Source: Paracoccaceae bacterium (GTDB lineage: Bacteria; Pseudomonadota; Alphaproteobacteria; Rhodobacterales; Rhodobacteraceae). From it: 17,697 nt of DNA. Position numbers and translations under genes: made by a program. The DNA lies in the NCBI GenBank assembly GCA_023263735.1, contig JALQUQ010000012.1, positions 1-17,697 on the forward strand, written 5' to 3'. Below are positions 134 to 17,697 of the stretch, piece by piece (positions within the stretch are counted from its first letter, which is position 1; every line of letters starts with the position of its first letter). The notes under the pieces are model-generated. The model made no database searches, was not told the origin of the DNA, and was given only the letters and a program-made list of their open reading frames with translations.

Positions 134-216
134 GGGAAATCGTTCAACTTGATCCTATTAGGGGGGTGTTAAGCGACTTTGCTGCAGGGTGGGCCAACAA
201 TACGGCATCATTCTGT

Positions 217-223
217 AGAAAGG
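217..223 (+). promoter_or_regulatory. Ribosome binding site that fixes the flgE start
   Basis: AGAAAGG lies 8 nt before the ATG at 232. It favours this ATG over an in-frame GTG at 166. The 22 residues added by the GTG start do not resemble a FlgE N-terminus, whereas the protein from 232 begins exactly like the family. Confidence 0.6.
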
Positions 224-231
224 CGGCTTTG

Positions 232-1539
232 ATGACGATCTCTTCCTCGCTGAATGCGGGCGTTGCGGGCCTGAACGCGAATGCGACCCGGCTTGCCTCC
301 ATCTCTGACAATATCGCGAATTCGTCGACCTTTGGGTACAAGCGGGCCTCGACAGAATTTGAAAGCATGGTGATTTCAAATTCCCGCGGCGCGGGCACCT
401 ATTCGGCCGGGGGGGTGCGCGCCTCAACCTCCCGCTTGATTGAAGAGCGGGGGGCCCTTGTCGGCACCTCAAATGCGCTGGATCTGGCGGTTCGTGGGCG
501 GGGCATGCTGCCGGTGATGCCGGCTTCGGGCATGAATTCGGAAACGGGCGCCATTCCGATGATGATGACCACCACCGGTGCCTTTCGAACAGATGCGGAT
601 GGGGTGTTGAAAACGGAATCCGGCCTGGTGCTGTTGGGGTGGCCCGCCAATGGGGATGGGATTATCCCGACATTTCCGCGCGATACAAACAGCGGGCTTC
701 AGCCGGTGGTGATCAATGCCAACCAGACGGCCGGCGATCCGACCACGGTGATCTCGCTTGGCGTCAATCTTCCGGCCACAGAAACGGCCGCCGCCTCTTC
801 GGGTGAGGCGTTGCCCGTTTCCGTCGAATATTTCGACAATCTTGGCACCTCTGCCACCCTCGACATCACCTTTACCCCGGATGTGCCGGCGACGGGGTCG
901 TCCAACACCTGGACCATGCTGATCAAGGATTCGGCTTCGGGCGGGGCGGTTGTCGGGGAATATACGCTGACCTTTGATGATACGCGCGGGGCCGGGGGCA
1001 CGTTGTCGTCGGTCACCACCGTTTCGGGCGGTGTTTATGACACGGTCAATGGCACCCTGGACATGACCGTTGCCGGCGGGCCGATCACGATGACCATCGG
1101 GCGTTTGGGCGATCCGAACGGGTTGACCCAATTGTCAGACACCTTTGCCCCGACCGCCATCACCAAGGATGGATCGCCCGTCGGCAATCTGACAGCGGTC
1201 GAGGTGGATGAAAACGGGTATATCATGGCAACCTATGACACCGGGTTCATCCGGCGTATCTATCAGATTCCATTGGTTGATGTTCCCAATGTGAACGGCC
1301 TGACCGCCCTGAACAACCAAACGTTTCAAGTCTCGCCCGACTCGGGGTCGTTTTTTCTGTGGGATGCGGGTGACGGGCCAACCGGAACCGTCGTCGGCTA
1401 TGCGCGAGAGGGGTCGGCCACAGACGTTGCGGCTGAATTGACGGCCCTGATCACCACGCAGCGCGCCTATTCCTCGAATGCCAAGGTCATCCAGACGGTG
1501 GATGAAATGCTTCAAGAAACCACCAATATCAAACGATAA
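232..1539 (+). CDS. flgE: Flagellar hook protein FlgE
   Basis: FlgE (435 aa) polymerises outside the cell into the flagellar hook, the universal joint between rod and filament. It is exported by the flagellar type III system and has no Sec signal. The N-terminus carries the flagellar rod/hook signature: SSLNAGVAGLNANATRLA, then SDNIANSSTFGYK (residues about 4-37). The C-terminus has the matching helix with QRAYSSNAKVIQTVDEM (about 412-428), which pairs with the N-terminal helix in the assembled hook. The middle is the variable Thr/Gly/Ser-rich beta domain typical of FlgE. Length is normal for an alphaproteobacterial hook protein. It follows the motB end and precedes flgK by 12 nt, so it is probably cotranscribed with flgK, flgL and flgI. 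The start at 232 is supported by the RBS and by family alignment. Confidence 0.93.
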   Translation: MTISSSLNAGVAGLNANATRLASISDNIANSSTFGYKRASTEFESMVISNSRGAGTYSAGGVRASTSRLIEERGALVGTSNALDLAVRGRGMLPVMPASGMNSETGAIPMMMTTTGAFRTDADGVLKTESGLVLLGWPANGDGIIPTFPRDTNSGLQPVVINANQTAGDPTTVISLGVNLPATETAAASSGEALPVSVEYFDNLGTSATLDITFTPDVPATGSSNTWTMLIKDSASGGAVVGEYTLTFDDTRGAGGTLSSVTTVSGGVYDTVNGTLDMTVAGGPITMTIGRLGDPNGLTQLSDTFAPTAITKDGSPVGNLTAVEVDENGYIMATYDTGFIRRIYQIPLVDVPNVNGLTALNNQTFQVSPDSGSFFLWDAGDGPTGTVVGYAREGSATDVAAELTALITTQRAYSSNAKVIQTVDEMLQETTNIKR

Positions 1540-1551
1540 GGTCGTTTTGCC

Positions 1552-3003
1552 ATGACAATCGGATCTGCGCTGGCCTCGGCCCTGTCGGGCCTTACGGTTT
1601 CGGCCCGTCTGGCCGAGATCGCTTCGAACAACATTGCAAATGCCTTGAACGACGGCTTTGCCAAAAAGCAGGCCGTGGTCACGGCCCGCATGTTGGGGGA
1701 TCAGGGGGCCGGCGCGCGGGTGCAGGGCGTCACCCGATCGGTCGATGAATTGATCTTGGGCGATCTGCGTCTGGCGACGGCTGCACACCATTTTCACCAA
1801 TCAGAAACCACTTTTCTCCAAGGGATCGACACCGTTTTCGGCACAGCAGAGGATGAGGGGGCGATCTCTAACCGGATCGCCGGGTTCGAGGCGGCCCTGA
1901 CCCGCGCGCAATCGCGGCCCGATTCCGACCCGCGGCTACAGTCTGTGGTTGATGCCGCAAAATGGGTTGCCAGCGGTTTGAACGATGTTTCAAAGGAGAT
2001 TCAAACTTCACGTCAGGCCGCGGAGACCCGGATTTCCGGACTGGTGAGCCAGTTGAACTCTGACCTCCAGCGGATTGGCGAGCTGAATGCCAAGATCACG
2101 CGCATTTCCACCTCGGGTCGTGACAGCTCTGCCATTGAAGATCAGCGTCAACAGGTGATCGACCGTTTGGCCAGCGTCGTCCCCTTGCGGGAGGAAAAGC
2201 GCCCAAATGGTGCGATTGCCCTGTTTTCTTCAGGGGGATTGGTGCTGCTGGATGGGCGCGCGGCCGAGTTTGGTTTCACTCCGAATGCGCATGTCATGCC
2301 CGATGAGACTATCGGTTCCGGGCTTTCGGCGCTGACATTCAACGGGCAAGAGATCACGCTGAATGCGCAGGGCGGGCGACTGGGCGTCGGCGAACTGACC
2401 GCGCAGTTCGATTTGCGCGACCGACTTGCCCCACAGGCGCAGGCGCACCTTGATGGACTGGCTCGGGATCTGGTTGAGCGGTTGCAGGATCCGGCCGTCG
2501 ACCCCACGCTTGGTGGCGCTGCGGGGTTGTTCACCGATGCGGGAACCGCGTTTGCCGCCGCCAATGAAACCGGATTGTCGGGGCGTATCGCGGTCAATGC
2601 GGCCGTTTCGCCCGAAGCGGGGGGCGCATTGTGGCGGTTGCGGGCCGGGATCGGCGCCGCGTCACCCGGGGACCCGGGCGATGCAACGATCCTGCTGGCG
2701 ATGGGGGCCAAGGTCGCTCGTTCCCTGTCACCGGCCTCGGCCGCACTTTCCGGGCAATCGGGTTCGGTTGCCGAACTGGCATCGGGCCTGTCAGCGGGAT
2801 TCTCCGTGTCTCGTTTGGGGGCCGAACGCGCACAATCTTTTGCCGCCACCCGACATGAGACGTTGAAGGCGGAACATCTGGAAAATGGCGTCGATACCGA
2901 TGAAGAAATGCAAACGCTGCTCTTGATCGAACAGGCCTATGCCGCGAATGCCCGCGTGATTCAGGCGGCCGATGCCATGATGCAATCGATTTTGGAGATC
3001 TGA
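1552..3003 (+). CDS. flgK: Flagellar hook-associated protein 1, FlgK
   Basis: FlgK (483 aa) forms the first hook-filament junction ring, between FlgE and FlgL. The N-terminus has the shared axial-protein signature: SALASALSGLTVSARLAEIA, then SNNIANALNDGFAKK. Long helical stretches follow at about 65-220, with the FlgK-type pattern of helices before the central domain (for example RQQVIDRLASVVPLREE). The C-terminus has the paired helix EEMQTLLLIEQAYAANARVI, then QAADAMMQSILEI. It is somewhat shorter than enterobacterial FlgK (about 550 aa), as is usual in Rhodobacterales. It ends 2 nt before the flgL ATG, and GGAG near 2995 inside its last codons serves as the flgL ribosome binding site, so the two are translationally linked. 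Confidence 0.92.
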   Translation: MTIGSALASALSGLTVSARLAEIASNNIANALNDGFAKKQAVVTARMLGDQGAGARVQGVTRSVDELILGDLRLATAAHHFHQSETTFLQGIDTVFGTAEDEGAISNRIAGFEAALTRAQSRPDSDPRLQSVVDAAKWVASGLNDVSKEIQTSRQAAETRISGLVSQLNSDLQRIGELNAKITRISTSGRDSSAIEDQRQQVIDRLASVVPLREEKRPNGAIALFSSGGLVLLDGRAAEFGFTPNAHVMPDETIGSGLSALTFNGQEITLNAQGGRLGVGELTAQFDLRDRLAPQAQAHLDGLARDLVERLQDPAVDPTLGGAAGLFTDAGTAFAAANETGLSGRIAVNAAVSPEAGGALWRLRAGIGAASPGDPGDATILLAMGAKVARSLSPASAALSGQSGSVAELASGLSAGFSVSRLGAERAQSFAATRHETLKAEHLENGVDTDEEMQTLLLIEQAYAANARVIQAADAMMQSILEI

Positions 3004-3005
3004 CC

Positions 3006-4007
3006 ATGAGCTTGGTTTCTTTGGGCGATATGGCACAGACCTTCATGCTGCGCGGCCAGATCAACCGGTTGAAGGGCGAGGTGACGCGGACAACGGCAGA
3101 GTTGGCCTCTGGCCAAAAGCTGGATGTCGCGCAAAGCTTGAATGGCGACACGGCGCAATTGTCTTCCTACTTGCGCGCACAGGCTTTGATTCAAGGGTAT
3201 CAGACCGCAGCCTCGGATCAGGCGCTTCAGGCCGAAGCCATGCAAAGCGCGGTGGAGACCGTGCTGGATTTGGGCGAGGGGCTTGTTTCCCCGATCATGA
3301 CGGCCGCGCAGTCGCTTTCCACGCAAGTGTTCGACACAGTGGCGCGCGATGCCCAAAGCCGCCTGACGGCGGCCGTGGCGGCGCTGAATGTGTCAGTGGC
3401 CGGGCGCTATCCGATGGCCGGGGTCACTTCCGGTTCGCCGCCCTTGCCGAGTGGTGAGTTGTTCTTGGCAGAGCTGAAAACCGTCGTCGATGGGGCGTCA
3501 ACACCCGAAGAGGTGGTCAGCCGATTGTCAGATTGGTTCAACGGTTCAACGGGTTACTCCTCTGCGGCCTATGCGGGCGGTGACGGCGCAAAGCCAGTGC
3601 AGATCAGCCGGACCGAGGTTGTTTCCCTTTCGGTCACGGCCAACGATCCCGAAATCCGGCGCGCGCTGCATGGGTTGGCCGTGGCGGCAATGCTGGATGC
3701 GCCGAACATTTCCCTGAACGCCGAACAGCGCCAAACCCTGGCCACGATGGCCTATGCCGAACTGGATGCGGGCAATGCGGCGGCGGTCAATCTGGGCGCA
3801 CGGATCGGCACCATGCAACAACAGATCGACGTGGCCCAAAGTCGAAACGGGTCTGAGGCTTTGGTTTTTGAAAGCCGCATCGCGCGCGACATCGAGGCTG
3901 ATCCCTTTACTCTCGCGACCGAGCTGGAGGCGGTGCAGACCAATCTTGAAATGGTCTATTCCATCACCGCGCGCCTGTCGCGCCTGCATTTGTCGGATTA
4001 TCTGTGA
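3006..4007 (+). CDS. flgL: Flagellar hook-associated protein 3, FlgL
   Basis: FlgL (333 aa) forms the second junction ring, to which the flagellin filament attaches. It is a flagellin-like protein: an N-terminal coiled-coil helix with INRLKGEVTRTTAELASGQK (about 19-38), a less conserved middle, and a C-terminal helix with ELEAVQTNLEMVYSITARLS (about 306-325). This is the flagellin D0/D1 pattern. The N-terminus is more divergent than in gamma-proteobacterial FlgL, so identification rests on helix pattern plus position between flgK and flgI. Its stop codon overlaps the flgI start by one base (TGATG). Confidence 0.87.
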   Translation: MSLVSLGDMAQTFMLRGQINRLKGEVTRTTAELASGQKLDVAQSLNGDTAQLSSYLRAQALIQGYQTAASDQALQAEAMQSAVETVLDLGEGLVSPIMTAAQSLSTQVFDTVARDAQSRLTAAVAALNVSVAGRYPMAGVTSGSPPLPSGELFLAELKTVVDGASTPEEVVSRLSDWFNGSTGYSSAAYAGGDGAKPVQISRTEVVSLSVTANDPEIRRALHGLAVAAMLDAPNISLNAEQRQTLATMAYAELDAGNAAAVNLGARIGTMQQQIDVAQSRNGSEALVFESRIARDIEADPFTLATELEAVQTNLEMVYSITARLSRLHLSDYL

Positions 4008-5107
4008 TGCGGCTATTTGCTCTGCTGATTGGGCTGATGCTTTTGCCCGCCATCACTTGGGCTGAGGATATCCGGCTTAAGGATCTGGTGGAATTTGATG
4101 GGGTGCGGGGGAACGATCTGGTTGGTTATGGTCTGGTCGTTGGGTTGAACGGCACCGGTGATGGCATTCGCAATGCGCCCTTTACCGAAGAAATCATGCA
4201 AAATCTGCTGGAGAGGTTGGGCGTAAACGTTTCGGGAGAGGCGTTTCGCCCCAAGAATGTGGCCGCGGTTCTGGTCACATCGGAATTGCCGGCCCTTGCC
4301 CGGGCTGGGGGAAAGATCGATGTGACGGTTTCGGCCATTGGCGATGCGAAAAGCCTTTTGGGCGGAACTTTGGTGATGACGCCGATGAACGGGGCCGATG
4401 GTCAGATTTATGCCGTGGCGCAGGGAACGATCATCGCTGGGGGCGTTTCAGCCGAAGGGCAAGCGGCCCGCGTGGTTCAGGGTGTGCCGACCGCCGGCGT
4501 GATCCCGTCCGGTGCGCGGGTCGAGCGGGAGGTCGAGTTTGATTTTACGACGCTGTCTTCGGTGCGCTTGGCCCTGCGCAATCCGGATTTCACCACCGCG
4601 GGGCGGATCGAACAGGTGTTGAACGCCGAATTCGGGCGCCGGGTTGCCACCATGCTGGATGCTGGAACCGTTGAACTCGACATTGCGGCAACGGGGATGC
4701 GGTCTGCGGCCCATGTGATTGGCCGGGCCGAAAATCTGAGCGTCGCGCCAGAGTCGCGGGCGCGGGTGGTGGTCGACCAACGGTCGGGTACGATTGTCAT
4801 CGGTGAGGAGGTGCGGATCAGCCGTGTGGCCGTTGCCCAAGGGAATTTGACTCTGCGGGTCGAAGAGGCCCCGATGGTCGTGCAACCAAACCCCTTTGCC
4901 GAAGGCGAAACCATGGTGGTGCCGCGCACGCGGACCGGCATTGATCAGGCCCCGGGAACCGGTTTGGCCGAGGTGACGGGGGGCACGTCGCTTTCGGAAT
5001 TGGTTGCGGGGCTCAACGCCCTTGGCGTGGCCCCGCATGACATGATCGACATCCTGAAAAGCATCAAGGCTGCCGGAGCCCTTCATGCCGAATTCGTCGT
5101 GAATTAA
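4007..5107 (+). CDS. flgI: Flagellar P-ring protein FlgI
   Basis: FlgI (366 aa) forms the P ring, the bushing of the flagellar rod in the peptidoglycan layer. A Sec signal peptide is visible: MRLFALLIGLMLLPAITWA, with likely cleavage before EDIRLKDL, consistent with its periplasmic location. Family hallmarks follow: GNDLVGYGLVVGLNGTGD (about 35-52), GKIDVTVSAIGDAKSLLGG (about 103-121) and the C-terminal block with LSELVAGLNALGVAPHDMID. Length matches the family. ATG at 4007 is preferred over the overlapping GTG at 4004, since they differ by one residue and ATG gives a TGATG overlap with flgL. It is the last plus-strand flagellar gene here and runs to 3 nt from the convergent map gene, with no clear hairpin between them. 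Confidence 0.95.
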   Translation: MRLFALLIGLMLLPAITWAEDIRLKDLVEFDGVRGNDLVGYGLVVGLNGTGDGIRNAPFTEEIMQNLLERLGVNVSGEAFRPKNVAAVLVTSELPALARAGGKIDVTVSAIGDAKSLLGGTLVMTPMNGADGQIYAVAQGTIIAGGVSAEGQAARVVQGVPTAGVIPSGARVEREVEFDFTTLSSVRLALRNPDFTTAGRIEQVLNAEFGRRVATMLDAGTVELDIAATGMRSAAHVIGRAENLSVAPESRARVVVDQRSGTIVIGEEVRISRVAVAQGNLTLRVEEAPMVVQPNPFAEGETMVVPRTRTGIDQAPGTGLAEVTGGTSLSELVAGLNALGVAPHDMIDILKSIKAAGALHAEFVVN

Positions 5108-5110
5108 CGC

Positions 5111-5965
5111 TTAACCCCAGGTCGGATGGAATCTGTTTGCGGGGGAAAGGGTAAAGATTTCGCAACCCGTCGCCGTCACGCCGATCGAATGTTCGAACTG
5201 CGCCGACAGCGATTTGTCGCGCGTGATCGCGGTCCAATCATCCGAGAGGGTTTTGGTCTCGGGACGACCCAGATTGACCATGGGTTCGATGGTAAAGAAC
5301 ATGCCTTCTTCCAAAACCGCCTCGGCCCCCGGGCGACCATAGTGCAGCACATTCGGGGGGGCATGAAAGACCCGCCCCAGCCCGTGACCGCAGAAATCAC
5401 GAACGACGCTCATCCGCTGAGCCTCGACAAAAGATTGGATCGCAAACCCGATGTCGCCAAAGGTATTCCCCGGACGCACGGCCGCAATGCCCCGCATCAG
5501 CGCCTCATGCGTGACATCGATCAGGCGCATGGCAAAGGGTTTTGGCGTTCCGACGATATACATACGGCTGGTGTCACCATACCAACCGTCCACGATCACG
5601 GTGACATCGACGTTCAAAATATCGCCATCGACCAGCCGATCATTACCACGCGGGGTCTTTTCATGCTTGCTCGCCGGAATGGGCGAGCCGGGAATGCCAT
5701 GGCACACCACATGATTGGCCGAAATGCACGACGCGTGCTGATACCCTTTGTAGCCGATGGTCGCCGAAATCACGCCGCGGCGTTCGATCTCTTCGCGGAT
5801 GAAATCATCGATCTGGCCGGTTGTCGCCCCCACCTTGACGTGGCTGGCCACCATATCCAGGATTTCCGCCGCCACGCGCCCCGCCTGCCGCATGCCCGCA
5901 AAATCAGCATCTTCGTAGATGCGAATGCCATCTTTCGTGATCCGTGCGCGCGTGTCTTCCACCAT
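5111..5965 (-). CDS. map: Methionine aminopeptidase, type I
   Basis: This cytoplasmic metalloprotease (284 aa) removes the initiator methionine from nascent proteins. The five metal ligands of the family are visible: Asp120 (ILNVDVT), Asp131 (GDTSRM), His194 (FCGHGLGR), Glu227 (FTIEPM) and Glu258 (QFEHSIG). The substrate-site His89 (VVCHGIP) is also present. The ATG at 5965 has AAAGGAG just upstream (only 3 nt spacing). The open frame continues upstream to 6037, but that extension is not MAP-like. Oddity: between HGIPG and LVDGDI (residues about 93-110) there is a polar loop with PASKHEKTPRGND, roughly 14 residues longer than the usual short turn in bacterial MAPs such as the E. coli enzyme. 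It is convergent with flgI and divergent from the CinA-like gene. Confidence 0.95.
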   Translation of the reverse strand: MVEDTRARITKDGIRIYEDADFAGMRQAGRVAAEILDMVASHVKVGATTGQIDDFIREEIERRGVISATIGYKGYQHASCISANHVVCHGIPGSPIPASKHEKTPRGNDRLVDGDILNVDVTVIVDGWYGDTSRMYIVGTPKPFAMRLIDVTHEALMRGIAAVRPGNTFGDIGFAIQSFVEAQRMSVVRDFCGHGLGRVFHAPPNVLHYGRPGAEAVLEEGMFFTIEPMVNLGRPETKTLSDDWTAITRDKSLSAQFEHSIGVTATGCEIFTLSPANRFHPTWG

Positions 5966-5968
5966 GGG

Positions 5969-5975
5969 CTCCTTT
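5969..5975 (-). promoter_or_regulatory. Ribosome binding site for map
   Basis: Read on the minus strand, AAAGGAG is followed by CCC and then the ATG at 5965. It is a strong Shine-Dalgarno core at unusually short spacing. It marks the short form of the protein as the real one. Confidence 0.55.
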
Positions 5976-6040
5976 CGGTTCCCGCCTACATAAGAAAATC
6001 TGGCGGAAAAGGCCAGCGGGTCCGAAGGCCCGGGCACCCT

Positions 6041-6068
6041 TTGCAGAGCGGGCCGAGCGCCCTATACC
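6041..6068 (+). promoter_or_regulatory. Possible sigma-70 promoter for the CinA-like/GNAT pair
   Basis: TTGCAG at 6041-6046 and TATACC at 6063-6068 are 16 bp apart and lie 29 bp upstream of the ATG at 6097. They match the housekeeping -35/-10 layout moderately well. This is inferred from pattern only. Confidence 0.3.
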
Positions 6069-6096
6069 CAGTGCATGACGGCAAAAGGGGTGAGCG

Positions 6097-6816
6097 ATGC
6101 CAAATCCGACCGCGGCGATGCTGGTAATCGGCGATGAAATTCTTTCCGGGCGGACCCGGGATTCGAACATGAACCATTTGGCGACGGTGCTCAGCCAGCG
6201 CGGCATCACATTGGCCGAGGCGCGGTTTGTGCCCGATCAGACCGAGGCGATCGTGACGGCGGTCAATGCGCTGCGTCTGGCCTATGACCATGTCTTCACC
6301 AGCGGCGGGATCGGCCCCACGCATGACGACATTACCGCCGATGCCATTGCCTTGGCCTTTGGGGTGCCGATCTCGCACCGGGCCGATGCGATGGCGCTGT
6401 TGCAGGCGCATTATGATCGGGCCGGGGTGGCGTTCAACGACGCCCGTCAGCGTATGGCGCGCATTCCGGATGGGGCGGCGCTGATCGACAATCCGGTCAG
6501 TATCGCGCCCGGCTTCAGCCTTGGGAATGTGCATGTGATGGCGGGGGTTCCCCGGATATTCGAGGCGATGCTGGCGGGCGTTCTGGCCGGGATCACGGGT
6601 GGCGCACCCTTGCTTTCGCAGTCTTTGCGCGTTGATCGGGGCGAGGGCGAGATTGCTGCATCGTTCAAAGCCTTGGCCGAAGAGTACCCCGAACTTTCGA
6701 TGGGGTCTTATCCGTTTCAGCAAAATGGGGCCTTTGGGACCAATCTGGTGATCCGGGGGACCGATCCGGCGATGCTGGACGCGGCGATGATCAAGCTGCA
6801 AAGGTTGTTCGGATGA
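6097..6816 (+). CDS. Molybdopterin-binding protein, CinA N-terminal domain-like (competence/damage-inducible protein A family)
   Basis: The protein (239 aa) has the MoaB/MogA-type molybdopterin-binding fold found at the N-terminus of CinA. Visible motifs are AAMLVIGDEILSGRTRDSN (about 6-24) and the family loop TSGGIGPTHDD (residues 68-78). It ends at about the length of the COG1058 domain and lacks the C-terminal nicotinamide-nucleotide amidase (PncC) domain of full-length CinA. Stand-alone forms like this are common in alphaproteobacteria and are usually annotated 'competence/damage-inducible protein A'. The true substrate is not known; in CinA this domain has been linked to ADP-ribose pyrophosphatase activity. 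The RBS AAGGGGTGA precedes the ATG. Its stop overlaps the next gene's start by 4 nt (ATGA), so the two are translationally coupled. Confidence 0.85.
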   Translation: MPNPTAAMLVIGDEILSGRTRDSNMNHLATVLSQRGITLAEARFVPDQTEAIVTAVNALRLAYDHVFTSGGIGPTHDDITADAIALAFGVPISHRADAMALLQAHYDRAGVAFNDARQRMARIPDGAALIDNPVSIAPGFSLGNVHVMAGVPRIFEAMLAGVLAGITGGAPLLSQSLRVDRGEGEIAASFKALAEEYPELSMGSYPFQQNGAFGTNLVIRGTDPAMLDAAMIKLQRLFG

Positions 6817-7523
6817 CCCCAGAGTCCCTTCAGCACGCGATGGATGCGACATGGCCCGCGGCCCGATTGCACGAGGTGGGGCCTTGGCTGATCCGAGAGG
6901 GGCAGGGGGGCGGCAAGCGGGTTTCCGCGGCCAGTGCCCGTGCCGCGTGGCAGGATGGCGATATTGATCTGGCGGAAAAGGCGCAGATTGATCTTGGTCA
7001 AGAGCGGCTGTTCTTGATCCGCAAAGGGGATGAGGCGTTGGATCAGGCGCTGGACCGTCGGGGGTATCGCATCGTTGATCCCGTGATCGCCTATGCCATT
7101 CCCTGCGCTGATCTGGCCGAACCTGCGCCACCGGCGATGGCGGCCTTTCCGCATTGGCCGCCGCTGGCGATCTGCCGCGATATCTGGGCGGAACTGGGCA
7201 TTTCGGCCGCCCGCATTCGGGTGATGGAGCGGGCGCAGGGCCCGAAATGCGCGATCTTGGCCAGAACGGGCGACCAGCCATCGGGCGTGGCCTTTGTGTC
7301 GGTGCAAGGTGATGTGGCCATGTTGCACGCATTGGAGGTGCGCGAGCCAATGCGTCGGCAGGGTTCCGCGCACAACATCCTGCGAAGGGCTGCCAATTGG
7401 GCACTAGAGAACGGGGCCAAGACTTTTTCCTTGGTGGTGACCGAGGCCAATGATCCTGCCCGCAAGCTCTATGCTTCCCTGAATATGCAAGTTGTGGGAC
7501 AGTATCAGTACCGTCTGAAATGA
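6813..7523 (+). CDS. GNAT-family N-acetyltransferase
   Basis: A 236-aa protein with a C-terminal GNAT acetyl-CoA-binding core at about 157-230. It has beta strand 4 (GVAFVSVQGDVAMLHALEV), motif A with the pyrophosphate loop RREP-type pattern REPMRRQGSAHN (178-188), the following helix ILRRAANWALENGA, and the late-GNAT pattern NDPARKLYASLNM (213-225). The N-terminal 110 residues (GPWLIREGQGGGKRVSAA, then a helix and strand pattern) look like a second, degenerate GNAT half, an arrangement common among Rhodobacterales paralogues. The acceptor substrate cannot be deduced. It starts inside the end of the CinA-like gene, which suggests coexpression, but no shared pathway is known. Confidence 0.82.
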   Translation: MTPESLQHAMDATWPAARLHEVGPWLIREGQGGGKRVSAASARAAWQDGDIDLAEKAQIDLGQERLFLIRKGDEALDQALDRRGYRIVDPVIAYAIPCADLAEPAPPAMAAFPHWPPLAICRDIWAELGISAARIRVMERAQGPKCAILARTGDQPSGVAFVSVQGDVAMLHALEVREPMRRQGSAHNILRRAANWALENGAKTFSLVVTEANDPARKLYASLNMQVVGQYQYRLK

Positions 7524-11644: not shown

Positions 11645-13621
11645 ATGAGCCAGCATCGTCATCTGTTGTCGCCCTTGTCCCTGCGCGGGCATACCTTGCG
11701 AAATCGCGTCGTGTTCGGGGCGCATACGGCCAACATGTCCAAGGATGGCCTGCCAGATGCGCAATATGCGGGGTATCTGCGGGAACGCGCCTTGGGTGGT
11801 GCGGCGATGATCGTGGCCGAGCCGGTGCCCGTTCATCGCACGGGCGTTTTGACCCGTGGGAATTTTCGGCATTCGACAGATGATATCATCCCCGCCTTTC
11901 GTTCGGTGACCGAGGGGGTCAAGGACGCGGGCGCCGTGATCGTGCAGCAGCTTTACCACATTGGCGCGCATGGCGATTCAGACCTGAGCTTTGCCCCCCA
12001 TTGGTCGCCGTCTGGGCATGTCAGCTACCATGACAGCGACGGGTCGCACAAAATGACGGTGGCCGAGATCGAAGAGATGATCGCCGCCCATATCGCGGCC
12101 GCGATCCGGTGCCAGAAAGCCGGGTTTCAGGGCGTAGAGGTCTGGGCCGCCTATCATTCGCTGTTGGATCAGTTCTGGACCCCTTGGTCAAACGCCCGCG
12201 ACGATGAATGGGGGGGATCGCTGGAAAACCGCACCCGGTTTTCGCGGCGCATCATCGAAGGCATTCGCCGGGCTTGCGGCGAAGACTTCATCATCGGATT
12301 GTCGGTTTCGACCTCGGACAGCCATGATGTCTTGTTGTCAACCGAGGCTTTGGCCGAAACTGTCGCCCTGCACGACGCAACCGGTCACATCGATTATGTG
12401 ACCTGTGGGCATGGCGGCTATCTGGATTTTGAGCGGTTGATGCCGACGTTCCTGTTTGCCGAAAAGCTGACGGCCCCGGTAACCGAGGTGTTGAAAGGGG
12501 CCGTGAAGCATGCAGTGATCACCTCCGAGGCGCATGTGCGCACGCCCGAAAATGCAGAAAGCATCATCAGCAGCGGGCAGGCCGATCTGGTTTCAATCGT
12601 GCGCGGGCAGATTGCCGATCCGCATTTGGCCCGCAAGACGATCGAAGGGCGGCCAACAGATATCCGTGGCTGCATCAGTTGCAATCAGATGTGTTGGGGC
12701 CGCCGCAGCCGGGATTACTGGATTTCCTGCTTGATCAACCCCTCGGTCGGGCGCGAATGGGAATGGGGGGGCGACCGGTTCACCCCTGCTGAAACCCCAA
12801 AGACGGTGTTGGTTGTGGGGGCCGGGCCGGCCGGTTTGGAAGCGGCGCGCGTCGCTGCCGAACGGGGGCATCGTGTCGACATCGTCGAAGCTCTGCCACA
12901 GACCGGGGGGCAATTCCGGTTGGCAGCCGAGCAACCCCGCCGCGCGCAGATCTCCGATCTTTTGGATTGGTATGAGCGGCAGTTTGAAGCCTTGGGGGTG
13001 ACCCTGCGGCTGAATACCTTCGTCGAGGAAGAGGACATCGCCGCCCATGCGGCCGAGGTTGTGGTATTGGCCACCGGGTCCTTGCCCGACCCCGAGGTGC
13101 GGCAAAGGTGGGCCCCGTCGTTGGGGCCATTGCCGGGGGGGGATCGTCCGGGTGTCTGGTCGGCCGAAGAGGCGATGCGGCGCGAGGCGCGGCTGGGCGA
13201 TCACGTCATCGTTCTGGATGAGGGCGGCAACTGGCGGGGCGTTGGCACCGCTTGGACCTTGGCCGAGCGCGGGCACAAGGTGACGCTGGTCACCCCAGAT
13301 GCCTATGTCGGCAAAGAGTTGACCCGGACATCGGCGGACGCCCCCGCGCGGGTGCGTCTGGCGCGTCTGGGCGTGACCTTTCTGACCGAGCATTGCTTGA
13401 CGGCATGGCACGGCAATGGCGCAACGGTTCGCAGTTTCCTGACCGGCGAAGAGCAGACGCTGGCCGCCTCGGCTGTGGTCTATGCAACGACAAATCAGGC
13501 CTTTGATCCGTGGCCGGAAACCTTTGACGGCAAGGTCACGCATCGGATCGGGGATTGTGTGGCGCCCCGTCAGGCCCCCTATGCCTTTTACGAGGGTCGA
13601 AAGCTGGGCCGCGAACTCTGA
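11645..13621 (+). CDS. NADH:flavin oxidoreductase, Old Yellow Enzyme/TMADH-type iron-sulfur flavoprotein
   Basis: A 658-aa three-domain redox enzyme. Residues 1 to about 360 form the FMN-binding TIM barrel (LRNRVVFGAHTANM at 18-31; NARDDEWGGSLENRTRF near 181-197). A 4Fe-4S motif follows: Cys343, Cys346, Cys350 and Cys362 (CISCNQMC, then 11 residues, then C). Residues about 385-658 are an FAD/NAD(P)-binding module with VLVVGAGPAGLEAARVAAE near 388 and a second dinucleotide fold near 520. This is the architecture of trimethylamine dehydrogenase, 2,4-dienoyl-CoA reductase and several N-demethylases of methylated amines. The substrate is unknown. The Cys that binds FMN covalently in TMADH is Thr28 here (AHTANM), so the FMN should be non-covalent. 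GGAGG precedes the ATG. It stands alone, with no electron-transfer partner or substrate transporter gene beside it. Confidence 0.9.
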   Translation: MSQHRHLLSPLSLRGHTLRNRVVFGAHTANMSKDGLPDAQYAGYLRERALGGAAMIVAEPVPVHRTGVLTRGNFRHSTDDIIPAFRSVTEGVKDAGAVIVQQLYHIGAHGDSDLSFAPHWSPSGHVSYHDSDGSHKMTVAEIEEMIAAHIAAAIRCQKAGFQGVEVWAAYHSLLDQFWTPWSNARDDEWGGSLENRTRFSRRIIEGIRRACGEDFIIGLSVSTSDSHDVLLSTEALAETVALHDATGHIDYVTCGHGGYLDFERLMPTFLFAEKLTAPVTEVLKGAVKHAVITSEAHVRTPENAESIISSGQADLVSIVRGQIADPHLARKTIEGRPTDIRGCISCNQMCWGRRSRDYWISCLINPSVGREWEWGGDRFTPAETPKTVLVVGAGPAGLEAARVAAERGHRVDIVEALPQTGGQFRLAAEQPRRAQISDLLDWYERQFEALGVTLRLNTFVEEEDIAAHAAEVVVLATGSLPDPEVRQRWAPSLGPLPGGDRPGVWSAEEAMRREARLGDHVIVLDEGGNWRGVGTAWTLAERGHKVTLVTPDAYVGKELTRTSADAPARVRLARLGVTFLTEHCLTAWHGNGATVRSFLTGEEQTLAASAVVYATTNQAFDPWPETFDGKVTHRIGDCVAPRQAPYAFYEGRKLGREL

Positions 13622-13652
13622 CGCGGCTCTTTGCGTCATTCGGCCGATAAGG

Positions 13653-13679
13653 GGCGCGGCGCTTTGATATGGCCGCGCC
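13653..13679. terminator. GC-rich hairpin after the flavoprotein gene
   Basis: GGCGCGGC (13653-13660) and GCCGCGCC (13672-13679) form a perfect 8-bp stem around an 11-nt loop, 31 nt after the flavoprotein stop codon. No T-run follows on the plus strand, so it is at best a weak or Rho-assisted terminator, or a stabilising 3' structure. Confidence 0.35.
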
Positions 13680-13754
13680 AGAAAACCACTTGGCGACGGG
13701 CGGTGAAAGGGGCAAGATCACCCCAATCGCCCGCATTCTGTTGCGCCAAGAGAC

Positions 13755-13845
13755 CGACTTTTCAGATGTTTTTTCGTGATAATAGGATGTAATGGGTGTT
13801 TACATTTACTAAGTAACGAATGCCTCTAGGTCAACGGGGGAAAAG
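13755..13845 (+). promoter_or_regulatory. AT-rich promoter region of the coiled-coil/AAA module
   Basis: After the hairpin, base composition changes sharply to AT-rich (for example the T-run at 13769-13774). A GATAAT at 13778-13783 fits a -10 box, with CGACTT at 13755-13760 as a poor -35 at 17 bp. A TTTACA at 13799-13804 could be a second -35, but no good -10 follows it. GGGGGA at 13836-13841 is the ribosome binding site for the ATG at 13846. The promoter itself is inferred. Confidence 0.3.
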
Positions 13846-14919
13846 ATGGCCAATTTTGAGACGCAAATTTCTGAAAGCCAAAAGCAGGTTGCCGAGGCGC
13901 AATCCAAGATCAGGGAGGTGACCAGCCGCATCGAGGCTGCGCGCCAACAATTGGATGCCGGGGAAGCCGCCATCGACATTGAAAACGCGACCCTGCAAGA
14001 CGTTCACAAACACACGGATCTGATGAATGCCAACATCGCCGAATTGATCATGGGGCTTGATGATGTCACGGCGGCCTTCTCCAAGGATTTTGACGAGATG
14101 CGCACCAAGACAGGCTGGGAAAGCTTTGTCGGCGTGTTCAGCAACGCCAAATCCGAAAGCATGCGACAAGAACGTCTGCGCACCGCCAGCATTGATGATA
14201 AATTGCAGGATCTGATTTCGAAATCGGATGTCATCGTCAAACTTCTGCAAGGTCAGCTTGATATGCTGAACACGCAGAAAACCTCGGTCGAGGCGAATTT
14301 GACCGGTACGCTGACCGAGCGAGAGGTCACTGTTTCCGCGCTTGAGGCGGTACGGGCCGAAATCGCGACGATGGACCCCAAAATCATCGAGCTGGAAAAC
14401 AAGATCAGCGTTGAAATGGACGCAGCCACCCGGACGCGGCTGGAAACCGAATTGGCCGCGCTGAATTCGCGCTACAATGAATTGTTGCAGGACGAGCAGG
14501 TCAAGGTCGCAAAGTCGCAAACGCTGGAACGCTATATCGAAAAGGGCAAGACGTGGATGGACAGCCTGCAAAATCAGGCGGCCACGCAACTGGTGTTGAT
14601 CAACAAACTGCAGACAGACACCAAACAGCGGGTTGTGTTGTATGATGCGCTGACCGCCAGCCTCAAGACAGCCCAGCAACAGGATGTGGCGCACCGGATC
14701 AACGAAATCGGGGTCAAGACCGACCAAGAGGCGCAGGCCGCCATGGCCGCCATTGGCGCCGCGACCAATGACAAGATGGCCGATATGCTGGAAGCCCATG
14801 AAGACCACATGGTTTTTGCCCGCAAAATCCTTGAGCAAAAGGCCAAGGCCGATGAACGCTTTAACCGTCGGTTCGCGGCGATCGTCGATAAGCACGACAA
14901 GAACGCCTATGGAGAGTGA
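13846..14919 (+). CDS. Coiled-coil protein of unknown function (module gene 1)
   Basis: A 357-aa protein that I do not recognise. It has no signal peptide, no membrane segment and no cysteine, so it is probably cytoplasmic. It is almost wholly helical, with heptad-like stretches at about 1-60 (SESQKQVAEAQSKIREVTSR and on), 115-225 and 290-350. A short non-coil break near 89-103 contains TGWESFVGVFSNAKS. The C-terminus is basic and charged (KAKADERFNRRFAAIVDKHD). Length and helical pattern recall TelA (toxic anion resistance) and PspA-type membrane-stress proteins, but I see no signature of either. It is the first of four co-directional genes, preceded by an AT-rich promoter-like region and followed after 23 nt by a small membrane protein. 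A scaffold or adaptor for the downstream AAA protein is a reasonable inference, no more. Confidence 0.8.
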   Translation: MANFETQISESQKQVAEAQSKIREVTSRIEAARQQLDAGEAAIDIENATLQDVHKHTDLMNANIAELIMGLDDVTAAFSKDFDEMRTKTGWESFVGVFSNAKSESMRQERLRTASIDDKLQDLISKSDVIVKLLQGQLDMLNTQKTSVEANLTGTLTEREVTVSALEAVRAEIATMDPKIIELENKISVEMDAATRTRLETELAALNSRYNELLQDEQVKVAKSQTLERYIEKGKTWMDSLQNQAATQLVLINKLQTDTKQRVVLYDALTASLKTAQQQDVAHRINEIGVKTDQEAQAAMAAIGAATNDKMADMLEAHEDHMVFARKILEQKAKADERFNRRFAAIVDKHDKNAYGE

Positions 14920-14942
14920 CCAGTCTGCGGGGTGATACGGCG

Positions 14943-15281
14943 ATGACCTTTGCCGCACAGCGCCGACTTGCCGCAGCGATAGGCCTGACCGCAAGCGCAC
15001 TTGTCGGGCTCTTGGCTCTGCTTGCGGCAGGTCTGGCGCCAGAAAAGGGGTCGAACGTCGACTCCCTTTTTGCGGTGATGCTGCTGACCCTTTTGGGGGT
15101 GGCCGCGCTGGCGCTGGCCTTCGGGGTGGTGATGCGCTCGCTTCAGCGCTGGTTCTGGTTTGCCGGAAAGATCGGGGAAAGCCCGCTTTTCCGCCGCCGC
15201 ATCCTTACCGGCTGGGCCAGCGGCTTTTGGCGCTGGTGGCTGCATATTGACGAAAACGGGGATGACCTTGACCGTAGATGA
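14943..15281 (+). CDS. Small two-helix membrane protein (module gene 2)
   Basis: A 112-aa protein of no recognised family. Two hydrophobic segments at about 9-31 (ending in LVGLLALLAAGL) and 41-64 (LFAVMLLTLLGVAALALAF) form a hairpin. They are followed by a tail very rich in Trp and Arg (RWFWFAGK, then WASGFWRWWLH near 91-101), which may lie at the membrane surface. The acidic end is ENGDDLD. ATG at 14943 is chosen because GGGGTGA lies about 8 nt upstream. A GTG at 14916 overlapping the previous stop is in frame, but its putative Shine-Dalgarno is only 1 nt away. The gene's last 20 nt overlap the next gene, suggesting translational coupling. Confidence 0.7.
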   Translation: MTFAAQRRLAAAIGLTASALVGLLALLAAGLAPEKGSNVDSLFAVMLLTLLGVAALALAFGVVMRSLQRWFWFAGKIGESPLFRRRILTGWASGFWRWWLHIDENGDDLDRR

Positions 15282-16392
15282 CACGCTGACCAAGGACCAC
15301 GCGCAACTTTTTGATACGCTGATCGCGCGCCGGTACTTTGAAAAATTCGATGTGATCACAGGGCATCTTGTCCGGGTTGCCGGTGAGCTTGAGACCGAGG
15401 GGGCCCTGACCCGGACCGAGACCCGGATCTTGGGACGCTATGCCGCCAGTCTGGCGGCAACCTTCCGCGCGCTTTCGCTGAAATATCTGATGACCGGGCG
15501 AACGGAAACAGCCCCGCCCATGACCTTTGACCGGCATGAAAGCGGGTTTCCTGTGGCGCAGGAATTGATGCTGATGGCCGTCGATGCCGCGCAGGCCGGC
15601 AAGCATTTGGCGGGTGCCGCCTCGGTCGAAGAGTTGAAGGATCGGATGGTGCGCCAGATCGTGCGGGATCTGACCATTCCCACCCAGCTGCAGTTCGCCC
15701 TGTCGCAACGGATGTATTATGAGGCCTTGGTTCAGGGTGGCCTGTTCTGGGCGCGCAATGATCCCGATATCCAATGGGTCGAGGATGTGGGAGATCGGCG
15801 GCGGTATCTGGTGCATTGGGCGGTTTATGACACCCAGATCAATCTGCCCGTGATCTATTTGCTGAATGTCGAAGATTCTGGCCGCAAAGCCCTGCCGCAA
15901 GACGATCGCCGTTGGCCGCAAGCGCAGCAGCATCTGATGGCGCAAAGTCTTGATGGGCTAAAGCTTTTGACCATTGCCCAAGGCTTCGACAAGGATTTCG
16001 AGAATTTGCACCCGAAACGGCTGCGGCGCATCCACATCGGGCCGATGTATTCCAACAGCTTTACCCTGCAATCCGGCCCGATTTCCGAAGTGCTGGAAAA
16101 AGCCGTCGCCCCCGAAGGACAGGATTGGGCTTTGGTCTGGACGGTCGAGGATCTGCAATCCGAACGGGCCGAGCAAGTCAAGGATGGCTGGTTCAGCACG
16201 GTCGAACGCCAGATTTTTGCCCTTGACCCCTTTGCGGGGCGGGGGGCCGATACCGGGGCCACGCATATGGAGCGGATGGTTGTGCTGCCCGAACGTCCGT
16301 TTCAGGTGTTGGCCGAATTGAACCCGCCGGGGTTTCGCAACGTGCGCAAATTCGTGGTGGGCGCCGGGGGGCGCATCATATCGACCCGCTAG
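15262..16392 (+). CDS. Hypothetical protein (module gene 3)
   Basis: A 376-aa soluble-looking protein with no signal peptide, no clear membrane segment and no motif I can assign. The first 150 residues are mainly helical (FEKFDVITGHLVRVAGELET; RILGRYAASLAATFRALSLK). The second half looks alpha/beta with conserved-looking blocks: RRRYLVHWAVYDTQINLPVI near 188-207, LKLLTIAQGFDKDF near 234-247, KRLRRIHIGPMYSNSFT near 252-268, and RNVRKFVVGAGGRIISTR at the C-terminus. The start at 15262 overlaps the previous gene by 20 nt. The open frame extends upstream to 15160, but that part is the previous gene read in another frame. The RBS is poor (ACGGGG directly before the ATG), so translation probably depends on coupling. 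Confidence 0.75.
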   Translation: MTLTVDDTLTKDHAQLFDTLIARRYFEKFDVITGHLVRVAGELETEGALTRTETRILGRYAASLAATFRALSLKYLMTGRTETAPPMTFDRHESGFPVAQELMLMAVDAAQAGKHLAGAASVEELKDRMVRQIVRDLTIPTQLQFALSQRMYYEALVQGGLFWARNDPDIQWVEDVGDRRRYLVHWAVYDTQINLPVIYLLNVEDSGRKALPQDDRRWPQAQQHLMAQSLDGLKLLTIAQGFDKDFENLHPKRLRRIHIGPMYSNSFTLQSGPISEVLEKAVAPEGQDWALVWTVEDLQSERAEQVKDGWFSTVERQIFALDPFAGRGADTGATHMERMVVLPERPFQVLAELNPPGFRNVRKFVVGAGGRIISTR

Positions 16393-16431
16393 CGATCAGG
16401 CCTGTTCAAGTGATTTGAGGACGAGGGAATT

Positions 16432-17592
16432 ATGACCACGCGCGACACGATGGAACTGAAAGAAGAGGCGATCCGCAGTCAATACGAGGCTGCGTTGAAC
16501 CTTATGACCGGGTTTGATCATGCGCCAAGATTGGGAAAGGCGGTCGAGATTGCGCCGACAGAGCGGAGCAGCGGAATCGGCACGCGCCCCCGGTTTCGAT
16601 CAACGACCCCCGGGCTTGTCACGCGACCAACAACCCGCCCCGGAGGGGTGCGTCTGATTGACCGGATCGAGGGGCAGAGCGATGGTCTGTTGTCGCCGGT
16701 GCAATCCGCCGTTCTGAATGCGCTGCGGCGGGGGCTGGCGATCTCTCTCGCCATGGCCGAGTCTTGTGCGGCGCTGTCGCCCTTGGGCGAATTGAAGAAG
16801 GCCAATCTGGAGGGCCGTCTGCCCGAGACCAAAAGGTCGGAGTTTTCGGAATTGCTGGCGGCCGAGGCACTGGTGGCCCTGCACAGCTTTGCCAATGCGA
16901 CGGCGTTTCTTTTGGCCCCCCATCTGGGAAGCACAACGGTTGAGCTTGGCGAGGTTGACGAGGTCTTGACCGACAACACGCCCTTGGCTTTGCAGGGGGT
17001 GTTGTGGGAGCTGGATCAAGACATCGCACAGCATGCGACCGATGAGCCGCGTTTGACGGCAACCGTGGCGGCCTTTTGCGAAGTGCTGATGGAAAAGGTG
17101 GCCTTGCGCGCCCAAACCGCGCCCCGCACCGACGCATTCACCCAGAACTCGTGGAAGGTCGAGGCGGATGGCCTGACGCTTTCCGGCTTCAAACCGGCAC
17201 GCGTGGCCAAGGGTGGCCAAATCACCATGCAGTTCAAGAAACCGCATGAGGTGGTGGGCAACCACATCGCCAAATATCAGTCGATGAAACTGGCCAAGAT
17301 GCTGATGGCCTATGACTTTGACCGCAAGCTGAACCCCTTTGCCGAATTGGGCGGGTTCATCTTTACCTTCATGGGCGATGGCAAACCGGGCACTGGGAAA
17401 ACCACGCTGATCCAGATGATGGCGGGGCTGTTGAACGATTATTGTCAGGTCGCGGGTTATCCCTTCCGCTATCAGAACTTTTCGATCGATCAGATCGACA
17501 GCTATCAGGGCAAATCCGGCCAGAATGCCAAGGCCTTTATCGACACTGTCATCGATCCGACCGTGATCGGCTTGGTCTGCCTGAATCGCTGA
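16432..17592 (+). CDS. AAA-type ATPase, broken after Walker A (module gene 4)
   Basis: The visible reading frame has 386 codons. Residues 1 to about 300 are an unrecognised, partly helical region with a Thr/Arg/Pro-rich linker near 45-75. Then comes an AAA P-loop: GFIFTFMGDGKPGTGKTTLI with Walker A GKPGTGKT at 317-324 (Lys323). Next are NFSIDQIDSYQGKSGQNAKA and FIDTVIDPTVIG, the lead-in to a Walker B strand. The frame then changes character to LVCLNR and stops at 17590-17592, so Walker B, sensors and arginine finger are all missing. A complete homologue should continue well beyond this point. The last about six codons are foreign sequence from the junction near 17570. The start has GAGG and GAGGG upstream of the ATG. 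It is the likely motor of the module. As written it could not hydrolyse ATP. Confidence 0.8.
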   Translation: MTTRDTMELKEEAIRSQYEAALNLMTGFDHAPRLGKAVEIAPTERSSGIGTRPRFRSTTPGLVTRPTTRPGGVRLIDRIEGQSDGLLSPVQSAVLNALRRGLAISLAMAESCAALSPLGELKKANLEGRLPETKRSEFSELLAAEALVALHSFANATAFLLAPHLGSTTVELGEVDEVLTDNTPLALQGVLWELDQDIAQHATDEPRLTATVAAFCEVLMEKVALRAQTAPRTDAFTQNSWKVEADGLTLSGFKPARVAKGGQITMQFKKPHEVVGNHIAKYQSMKLAKMLMAYDFDRKLNPFAELGGFIFTFMGDGKPGTGKTTLIQMMAGLLNDYCQVAGYPFRYQNFSIDQIDSYQGKSGQNAKAFIDTVIDPTVIGLVCLNR

Positions 17593-17696
17593 TAGATCGA
17601 AACGCCCGCCATCCCGATTCCGGTCAGCCCCAGCGCCCACGCCGCCACGCTGCTGTCGTCCATCGCCGCGATGAGGCTGCCCACCGCAGTGAGCGA
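17505..17696 (-). CDS. Small membrane protein fragment, possibly holin-like (partial)
   Basis: An open frame enters from the right edge on the minus strand. It reads SLTAVGSLIAAMDDSSVAAW, then ALGLTGIGMAGVSIYQRFRQ: a hydrophobic segment followed by a basic tail, a pattern seen at the end of small phage holin-type proteins. This coding-like part covers about 17575-17696. The remaining 22 codons down to a stop at 17505 are antisense to the AAA gene and are probably not part of the original protein. The gene's start lies outside the window. The identification is tentative. Confidence 0.4.
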   Translation of the reverse strand, partial: SLTAVGSLIAAMDDSSVAAWALGLTGIGMAGVSIYQRFRQTKPITVGSMTVSIKALAFWPDLP

Positions 17697-17697
17697 G

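Follow-up and report, generated by a model that had tools for sequence, protein, structure and literature searches.

Bacterial operons that combine PspA/Snf7 proteins with AAA+ ATPases and Band-7 proteins are interpreted, in the portion of the report available to us, as carrying out remodelling like that of the endosomal sorting complexes required for transport (ESCRT) (PMC11237479). Archaeal ESCRT loci, as far as the accessible text of a second report describes them, include coiled-coil and SPFH members and, in Thaumarchaea, a coiled-coil protein encoded upstream of cdvC/vps4 (PMC10936438). The locus considered here lies in a 17,697-nt stretch of DNA (the window) from a Paracoccaceae bacterium of the family Rhodobacteraceae (GenBank assembly GCA_023263735.1, contig JALQUQ010000012.1), which is one complete contig (C33 in our numbering) of a 3.2-Mb assembly in 740 contigs that is 86% complete. 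It contains the first three core members, and one accessory gene, of a conserved five-gene unit encoding, in order, a coiled-coil protein (CC), a 376-aa protein (U), an AAA ATPase (AAA), a DUF6638 protein and a membrane protein. That these genes constitute a single functional unit is almost certain. What the unit does is far less secure; a membrane-associated machine in which AAA remodels assemblies of CC is the reading that we favor.

An earlier first-pass annotation, made from the sequence of the window alone, described four adjacent plus-strand open reading frames (ORFs) with spacings of 23, -20 and 39 nt, and both ORFs and spacings are reproduced. Its account of their composition needs amending: CC, U and AAA stand as members, the small membrane protein encoded between CC and U does not, and the contig ends before DUF6638 and DUF1523/DUF2333, so that these two conserved members were missed. 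Both lie on a second contig of this genome (C41), DUF6638 (PF20343) at 5572-6933 on the minus strand (699 bits against a cut-off of 27) and DUF1523 (PF07509) at 4624-5298 (245 bits against 23). The last gene of the unit is of the DUF1523 type in Rhodobacteraceae and of the DUF2333 type (PF10095) in Hyphomicrobiales.

The case for a unit rests on gene order. A genome scan with AAA gave 519 confirmed loci, the best 80 of which were analyzed; they were ranked by the Sinorhizobium meliloti protein and are hence skewed to its relatives. Seventy-seven carry names that we take to be those of Hyphomicrobiales, and the other three are two titled only Alphaproteobacteria and one metagenome-assembled genome labelled Arenimonas. 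The order CC-U-AAA-DUF6638-DUF2333 on a single strand is kept in all 80, S. meliloti included, and genes for thymidine kinase and formate-tetrahydrofolate ligase flank the unit in 60. Closer to the window, 26 of 61 relatives have U. They comprise 15 of the 16 from its own genus (this genome counted), 11 of the 21 from other genera of the family and none of the 24 from the rest of the class. Loci were fetched from 20 of the 25 U-positive genomes other than this one; in each, CC-U-AAA-DUF6638 occupy one strand and are followed by a DUF1523-like gene (identified by motif; two were tested with Pfam). One or two hydrophobic segments are found in every DUF2333 protein of the 80 scan loci and every DUF1523 protein of the 20 Rhodobacteraceae loci. 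Annotated loci of S. meliloti and Vibrio parahaemolyticus keep this order for CC, U, AAA and DUF6638. The first-pass annotation had proposed a system of linked genes and had set scattered homologues against it; linkage is what was found, in the 80 and the 20 loci, in a gene-by-gene comparison of the S. meliloti and Vibrio loci, in a genome from another class of the phylum (L136) and, in the form of co-occurrence, across the plasmid records.

Presence of the unit is patchy and nearly all-or-none. An even sample of 149 Rhodobacteraceae genomes has DUF6638 in 69, CC in 65 and U in 63, all 63 of the latter falling among the 65 with CC (lists compared by eye). CC and DUF6638 are both present in 64 genomes and both absent from 79, DUF6638 stands alone in five and CC alone in one (Fisher p 6e-35, kinship ignored). 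In three of the six exceptions (G248, G311 and G348) the match lies at the edge of a contig, on the flank where the absent gene would be expected, and in G349 and G350 the DUF6638 match is partial; for G299, a genome 77% complete, no explanation was seen. CC and DUF6638 share contig and strand in 56 of the 64 genomes, with CC upstream in all 56 and 1.7-5.7 kb between them; they lie on different contigs in the other eight, this genome included. Plasmids repeat the pattern: tblastn of 72,556 plasmid records with AAA matched 10, U and DUF6638 match the identical 10, and CC matches those 10 plus one more, weakly and partially. A sample of the class has DUF6638 in 3 of 190 genomes (this one among them, and all three belonging to the family of the window), and a sample of the phylum in 26 of 398 (14 of the same family, 11 of other families of the class, one of another class). 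The complete unit with DUF1523 is found in another family of the class (L137) and in L136, where best matches are 49-71% identical to the Rhodobacteraceae versions; the L136 copy is probably a transfer of the whole unit, and the pattern suggests some such transfer between lineages. The unit seems rare in Vibrio, since only three proteins were matched with the Vibrio U as query.

The AAA gene is interrupted by the end of the window. The first-pass annotation closed it at position 17592; this has to be given up because DNA similarity to all three relatives compared stops at 17573, because full-length homologues are 634-667 aa long (the window ORF is 386 aa), and because the rest of the gene is on C41. 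Past 17573 the ORF encodes about six residues unlike any relative and then a stop. With a full-length relative as query, residues 1-383 are matched in the window and residues 605-641 at 7016-7126 of C41, a contig that ends at 7126; the part between residues 383 and 605 has no match in the contigs of this genome. The genome thus reads CC - small membrane protein - U - AAA // AAA - DUF6638 - DUF1523, with about 220 codons absent from the assembly. Since the window is one whole contig of a 740-contig assembly, its last 124 bases are most plausibly a chimeric or mis-assembled terminus. No second copy of them exists anywhere in the assembly; one of their reverse-strand frames is open and hydrophobic.

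AAA is 43% identical to its S. meliloti homologue and 37% to that of Vibrio, and is by sequence a member of the classical AAA family PF00004: the scores are 41.8, 50.2 and 44.3 bits for three full-length relatives (cut-off 21.2), and the truncated window ORF stays below the threshold at 17.5 bits. The window ORF has a Walker A motif (GDGKPGTGKT). HMMER aligns its segment IDSYQGKSGQN with MSKYYGQSEQK of a VCP-like ATPase at what we take to be pore loop 1, and Y, Q, G, K and S of this segment are invariant in 30 homologues. Alignment with i-AAA protease, VCP-like, proteasomal and katanin ATPases extends to this aromatic pore-loop position. The Walker B, sensor 1 and arginine finger region lies beyond the contig end here; in relatives it aligns with classical AAA proteins. 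The N-terminal region of about 300 residues that the first-pass annotation could not recognize has no Pfam match in full-length relatives either. Three full-length relatives likewise lack any Pfam match to a PspF-type sigma54-activation AAA+ domain with helix-turn-helix, matching PF00004 instead.

CC is 42% identical to its S. meliloti homologue and 40% to that of Vibrio; its homologues at E<=0.001 number at least 4656. The family is strongly constrained: 106 of 357 residues are invariant across 53 sequences, 48 of them within residues 217-306. The AlphaFold model of CC is all helix and of low confidence (predicted local distance difference test score, pLDDT, 65.5; predicted template modelling score, pTM, 0.45). 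Comparison by sequence with solved structures gave nothing credible. In genome G302 (locus L139) the CC match carries one in-frame TAA and the remaining unit is present. The description of CC as cytoplasmic and of the small protein as two-helix agrees with a hydrophobicity scan, which finds no segment over threshold in CC and two in the small ORF; U and AAA of the window have none. CC and U are predicted to be soluble. Across the 80 scan loci CC and U never pass this threshold, and 21 AAA proteins pass it once.

U is 31% identical to the S. meliloti and 30% to the Vibrio homologue; its homologues number at least 2741. It had been described as lacking a recognized domain, and indeed no Pfam family scores above cut-off in U, nor in CC or the small ORF. 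Its AlphaFold model is confident (pLDDT 88.6, pTM 0.88) and combines a helical N-terminal part with a T-fold-like domain. Neither U nor DUF6638 gave anything credible when compared by sequence with solved structures, and profile comparison finds U unrelated to DUF6638 and to AAA.

Two of the positions between core genes are variable. The small membrane protein that the first-pass annotation counted as a module member is a sporadic accessory: in the loci of the 20 relatives it has no tblastn match at E 1e-4, and where loci of its own genus were fetched (11), just 4-31 nt separate the CC match from the U match. Small hydrophobic ORFs occur at the CC-U junction of L119, L120, L122 and L124, and only that of L124, which encodes a 99-aa protein, resembles the one in the window (30% identical along 63 aa, with E 1.5e-6 when eight proteins were compared). 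A Band_7/SPFH gene is inserted between CC and U in three of the 80 scan loci (L039:7642-8583, L065:7906-8796 and L077:7907-8797). Many Hyphomicrobiales CC-U gaps contain ORFs without a hydrophobic segment, which were not counted as genes and which give the impression of intergenic repeats. The AAA-DUF6638 spacer is also variable and gathers small genes (L005-L084, L106-L125); in L106, L120 and L122 it encodes mutually related small membrane proteins with three helices.

Features of the window that belong to or adjoin the unit (positions on the forward strand of the window).
Feature	Position	Strand	Remarks
Upstream intergenic region	13622..13845	+	~225 nt, 52% GC; presumed promoter region
CC, 357-aa coiled-coil protein	13846..14919	+	ORF
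Small two-helix membrane protein, Trp-rich tail	14943..15281	+	112 aa from ATG; 121 aa from GTG at 14916
U, 376-aa protein	15262..16392	+	ORF
T-fold-like domain of U	15754..16278	+	about residues 165-339
AAA ORF as read in the window	16432..17592	+	386 aa
AAA ATPase gene, 5' part	16432..17573	+	about 380 of about 640 codons; collinearity, PF00004 in relatives
Walker A motif GDGKPGTGKT	17374..17403	+	9 of 10 columns invariant (30 homologues)
IDSYQGKSGQN	17494..17526	+	HMMER aligns it to aromatic pore loop 1 (classical AAA proteins)
Foreign or chimeric contig end, outside the module	17574..17697	.	no similarity to 3 relatives beyond 17573

The separate upstream region claimed for the module exists and presumably contains its promoter; its AT-richness is only mild, 1-kb windows overlapping it having 55-61% GC. 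Of the stretches fetched from the 20 relatives, only two contain a match to the gene before it (11645-13621). Farther upstream (166-5107) are genes that, by the look of their translations, we take to encode flagellar hook, hook-filament junction and P-ring proteins.

A classical AAA motor, a constrained family of soluble coiled-coil proteins and a membrane protein as the last gene together suggest a machine that works beneath the membrane. An ATP-driven complex would sit at the cytoplasmic face of the inner membrane, with the DUF1523/DUF2333 protein and its one or two predicted membrane segments as anchor. CC would build coiled-coil assemblies; AAA, presumably a hexamer, would engage CC, perhaps through the conserved residues 217-306, and its pore would pull on CC, so that the assembly is remodelled or taken apart. 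U, which may form a ring through its T-fold-like domain, and DUF6638 could serve as adaptors or ligand sensors. We infer complex formation, CC as the substrate of AAA, the hexamer and its threading, the side of the membrane and the remodelling of membranes themselves; the resemblance to ESCRT-III and PspA is by analogy only. We put the probability of this reading at about 0.4. The first-pass annotation had sensed a likeness to membrane-remodelling or envelope-stress systems, of which the link to the membrane survives (DUF1523/DUF2333, the occasional Band_7) and the remodelling is conjectural; its remark that TelA and PspF signatures are absent agrees with the Pfam and hhalign tests.

Several results weigh against this proposal. 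PspA_IM30 and Snf7 have no Pfam match in CC (E<=1) or in two homologues (E<=0.5), and identity of CC with PspA/Snf7 is rejected by sequence. PF05816 (TelA) has no match in CC at E<=1, and hhalign against the genome's own TelA, a single sequence, gives a probability of 0.4%, so that TelA identity is also rejected. Foldseek with the low-confidence model of CC found nothing at E<=0.001, the fold being too poorly modelled to compare; matches at E>=0.018 are generic helix bundles, including parts of alpha-pore-forming toxins, and given that model are no evidence for any identity, and the 50 matches listed include no entry for PspA, Vps/Snf7 or TelA. No MIT domain is matched by Pfam in three full-length AAA homologues. 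Which membrane protein closes the unit varies from order to order, and in the Vibrio locus no gene of DUF1523/DUF2333 type follows DUF6638, so that action at the membrane may not be essential.

A further reading, which we consider somewhat unlikely as a whole, is a new kind of ATP-driven sub-membrane machine unrelated to PspA/ESCRT-III: an AAA ring with an N-terminal domain of its own would act on a coiled-coil polymer formed by a new family (CC) and be governed by a new T-fold-like ring protein sensing a small molecule, and the anchors (DUF1523, DUF2333, Band_7, small two-helix proteins) would be interchangeable. Equally doubtful is a chaperone for assembly or activation. AAA ATPases such as CbbX and NorQ are activases or maturation factors; AAA would be another, with U (possibly a T-fold-like enzyme) and DUF6638 as its clients and CC as scaffold. 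The T-fold-like domain of U resembles purine and pterin enzymes, AAA has weak matches to CbbX and SpoVK, and U and AAA are immediate neighbors, often with fewer than 30 nt between them.

A module for defence against phages or mobile elements is improbable. The patchy presence of the unit (DUF6638 in 69 of 149 Rhodobacteraceae genomes, occurrence in Vibrio and in another class) would suit it, as would a homologue of DUF559 endonucleases in the AAA-DUF6638 spacer of 25 of the 80 loci L005-L084 and a weak TRIP13 match of AAA in PADLOC (E 1e-5). But PADLOC has no other match for the six proteins submitted (AAA, CC, U, DUF6638, DUF2333 and the small protein; DUF1523 was outside the set), CC has no relative in phage records and AAA none in viral contigs, and the constant flanking genes of 60 loci indicate a stable place there, not an island. 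Improbable too is a branch of the TelA/XpaC type, concerned with toxic anions or envelope stress, in which CC would be a distant TelA and the membrane protein would stand for XpaC. CC is helical, of similar length and has a membrane partner, and the genome has a true TelA elsewhere (PF05816; L085, contig C241), where a 294-aa ORF that comes before it contains hydrophobic stretches and is perhaps, we presume, XpaC-like; the failure of CC in the PF05816 and hhalign tests given above argues against this kinship. A chromosome or nucleoid machine, with CC as an SMC-like coiled coil moved by AAA, is likewise improbable: weak SMC matches of CC (E 0.0018) and source names of some homologues that read 'chromosome segregation ATPase' suggest it, but a score of 16 bits, where the cut-off is 729, is of the generic kind that coiled coils give, and Pfam finds no nucleotide-binding or DNA-binding domain in CC.

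The unit occurs, collinear in 80 of 80 loci, in genetically tractable bacteria, and the S. meliloti copy makes it directly testable; its proteins are annotated as hypothetical or as DUFs. The later genes are members of DUF6638, DUF1523 and DUF2333 by curated Pfam cut-off, and these families carry no functional annotation. A literature search that covered few subscription papers and no supplementary files found no paper naming DUF6638/PF20343; papers naming DUF1523 or DUF2333 turned up within the same limits, and none is evidently about this unit (for example PMC5256989, as far as its accessible text goes). If AAA does drive membrane remodelling, the unit would add to the bacterial counterparts of ESCRT/PspA logic.

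How the unit stands to described systems can be put as follows. Like the TelA/XpaC pair it joins a helical cytoplasmic protein to a membrane partner; unlike that pair, it has a helical protein without a TelA match, and the genome's own TelA lies elsewhere. Compared with the PspA/Snf7 loci, as presented in the available part of that report (PMC11237479), CC is not PspA/Snf7 by sequence, no PspF, PspB or PspC is seen in the unit, and U and DUF6638 are without counterpart there; what is shared is the pairing of a helical soluble protein with an AAA+ ATPase and a membrane protein, at times Band_7. ESCRT-III/Vps4 (Cdv) differs in that no MIT or Snf7 domain is found here and that AAA has its own N-terminal region of about 300 residues without Pfam match. 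With that system, to the extent that the accessible text describes it (PMC10936438), the unit has in common a classical AAA ATPase with an aromatic pore-loop position, and a helical partner.

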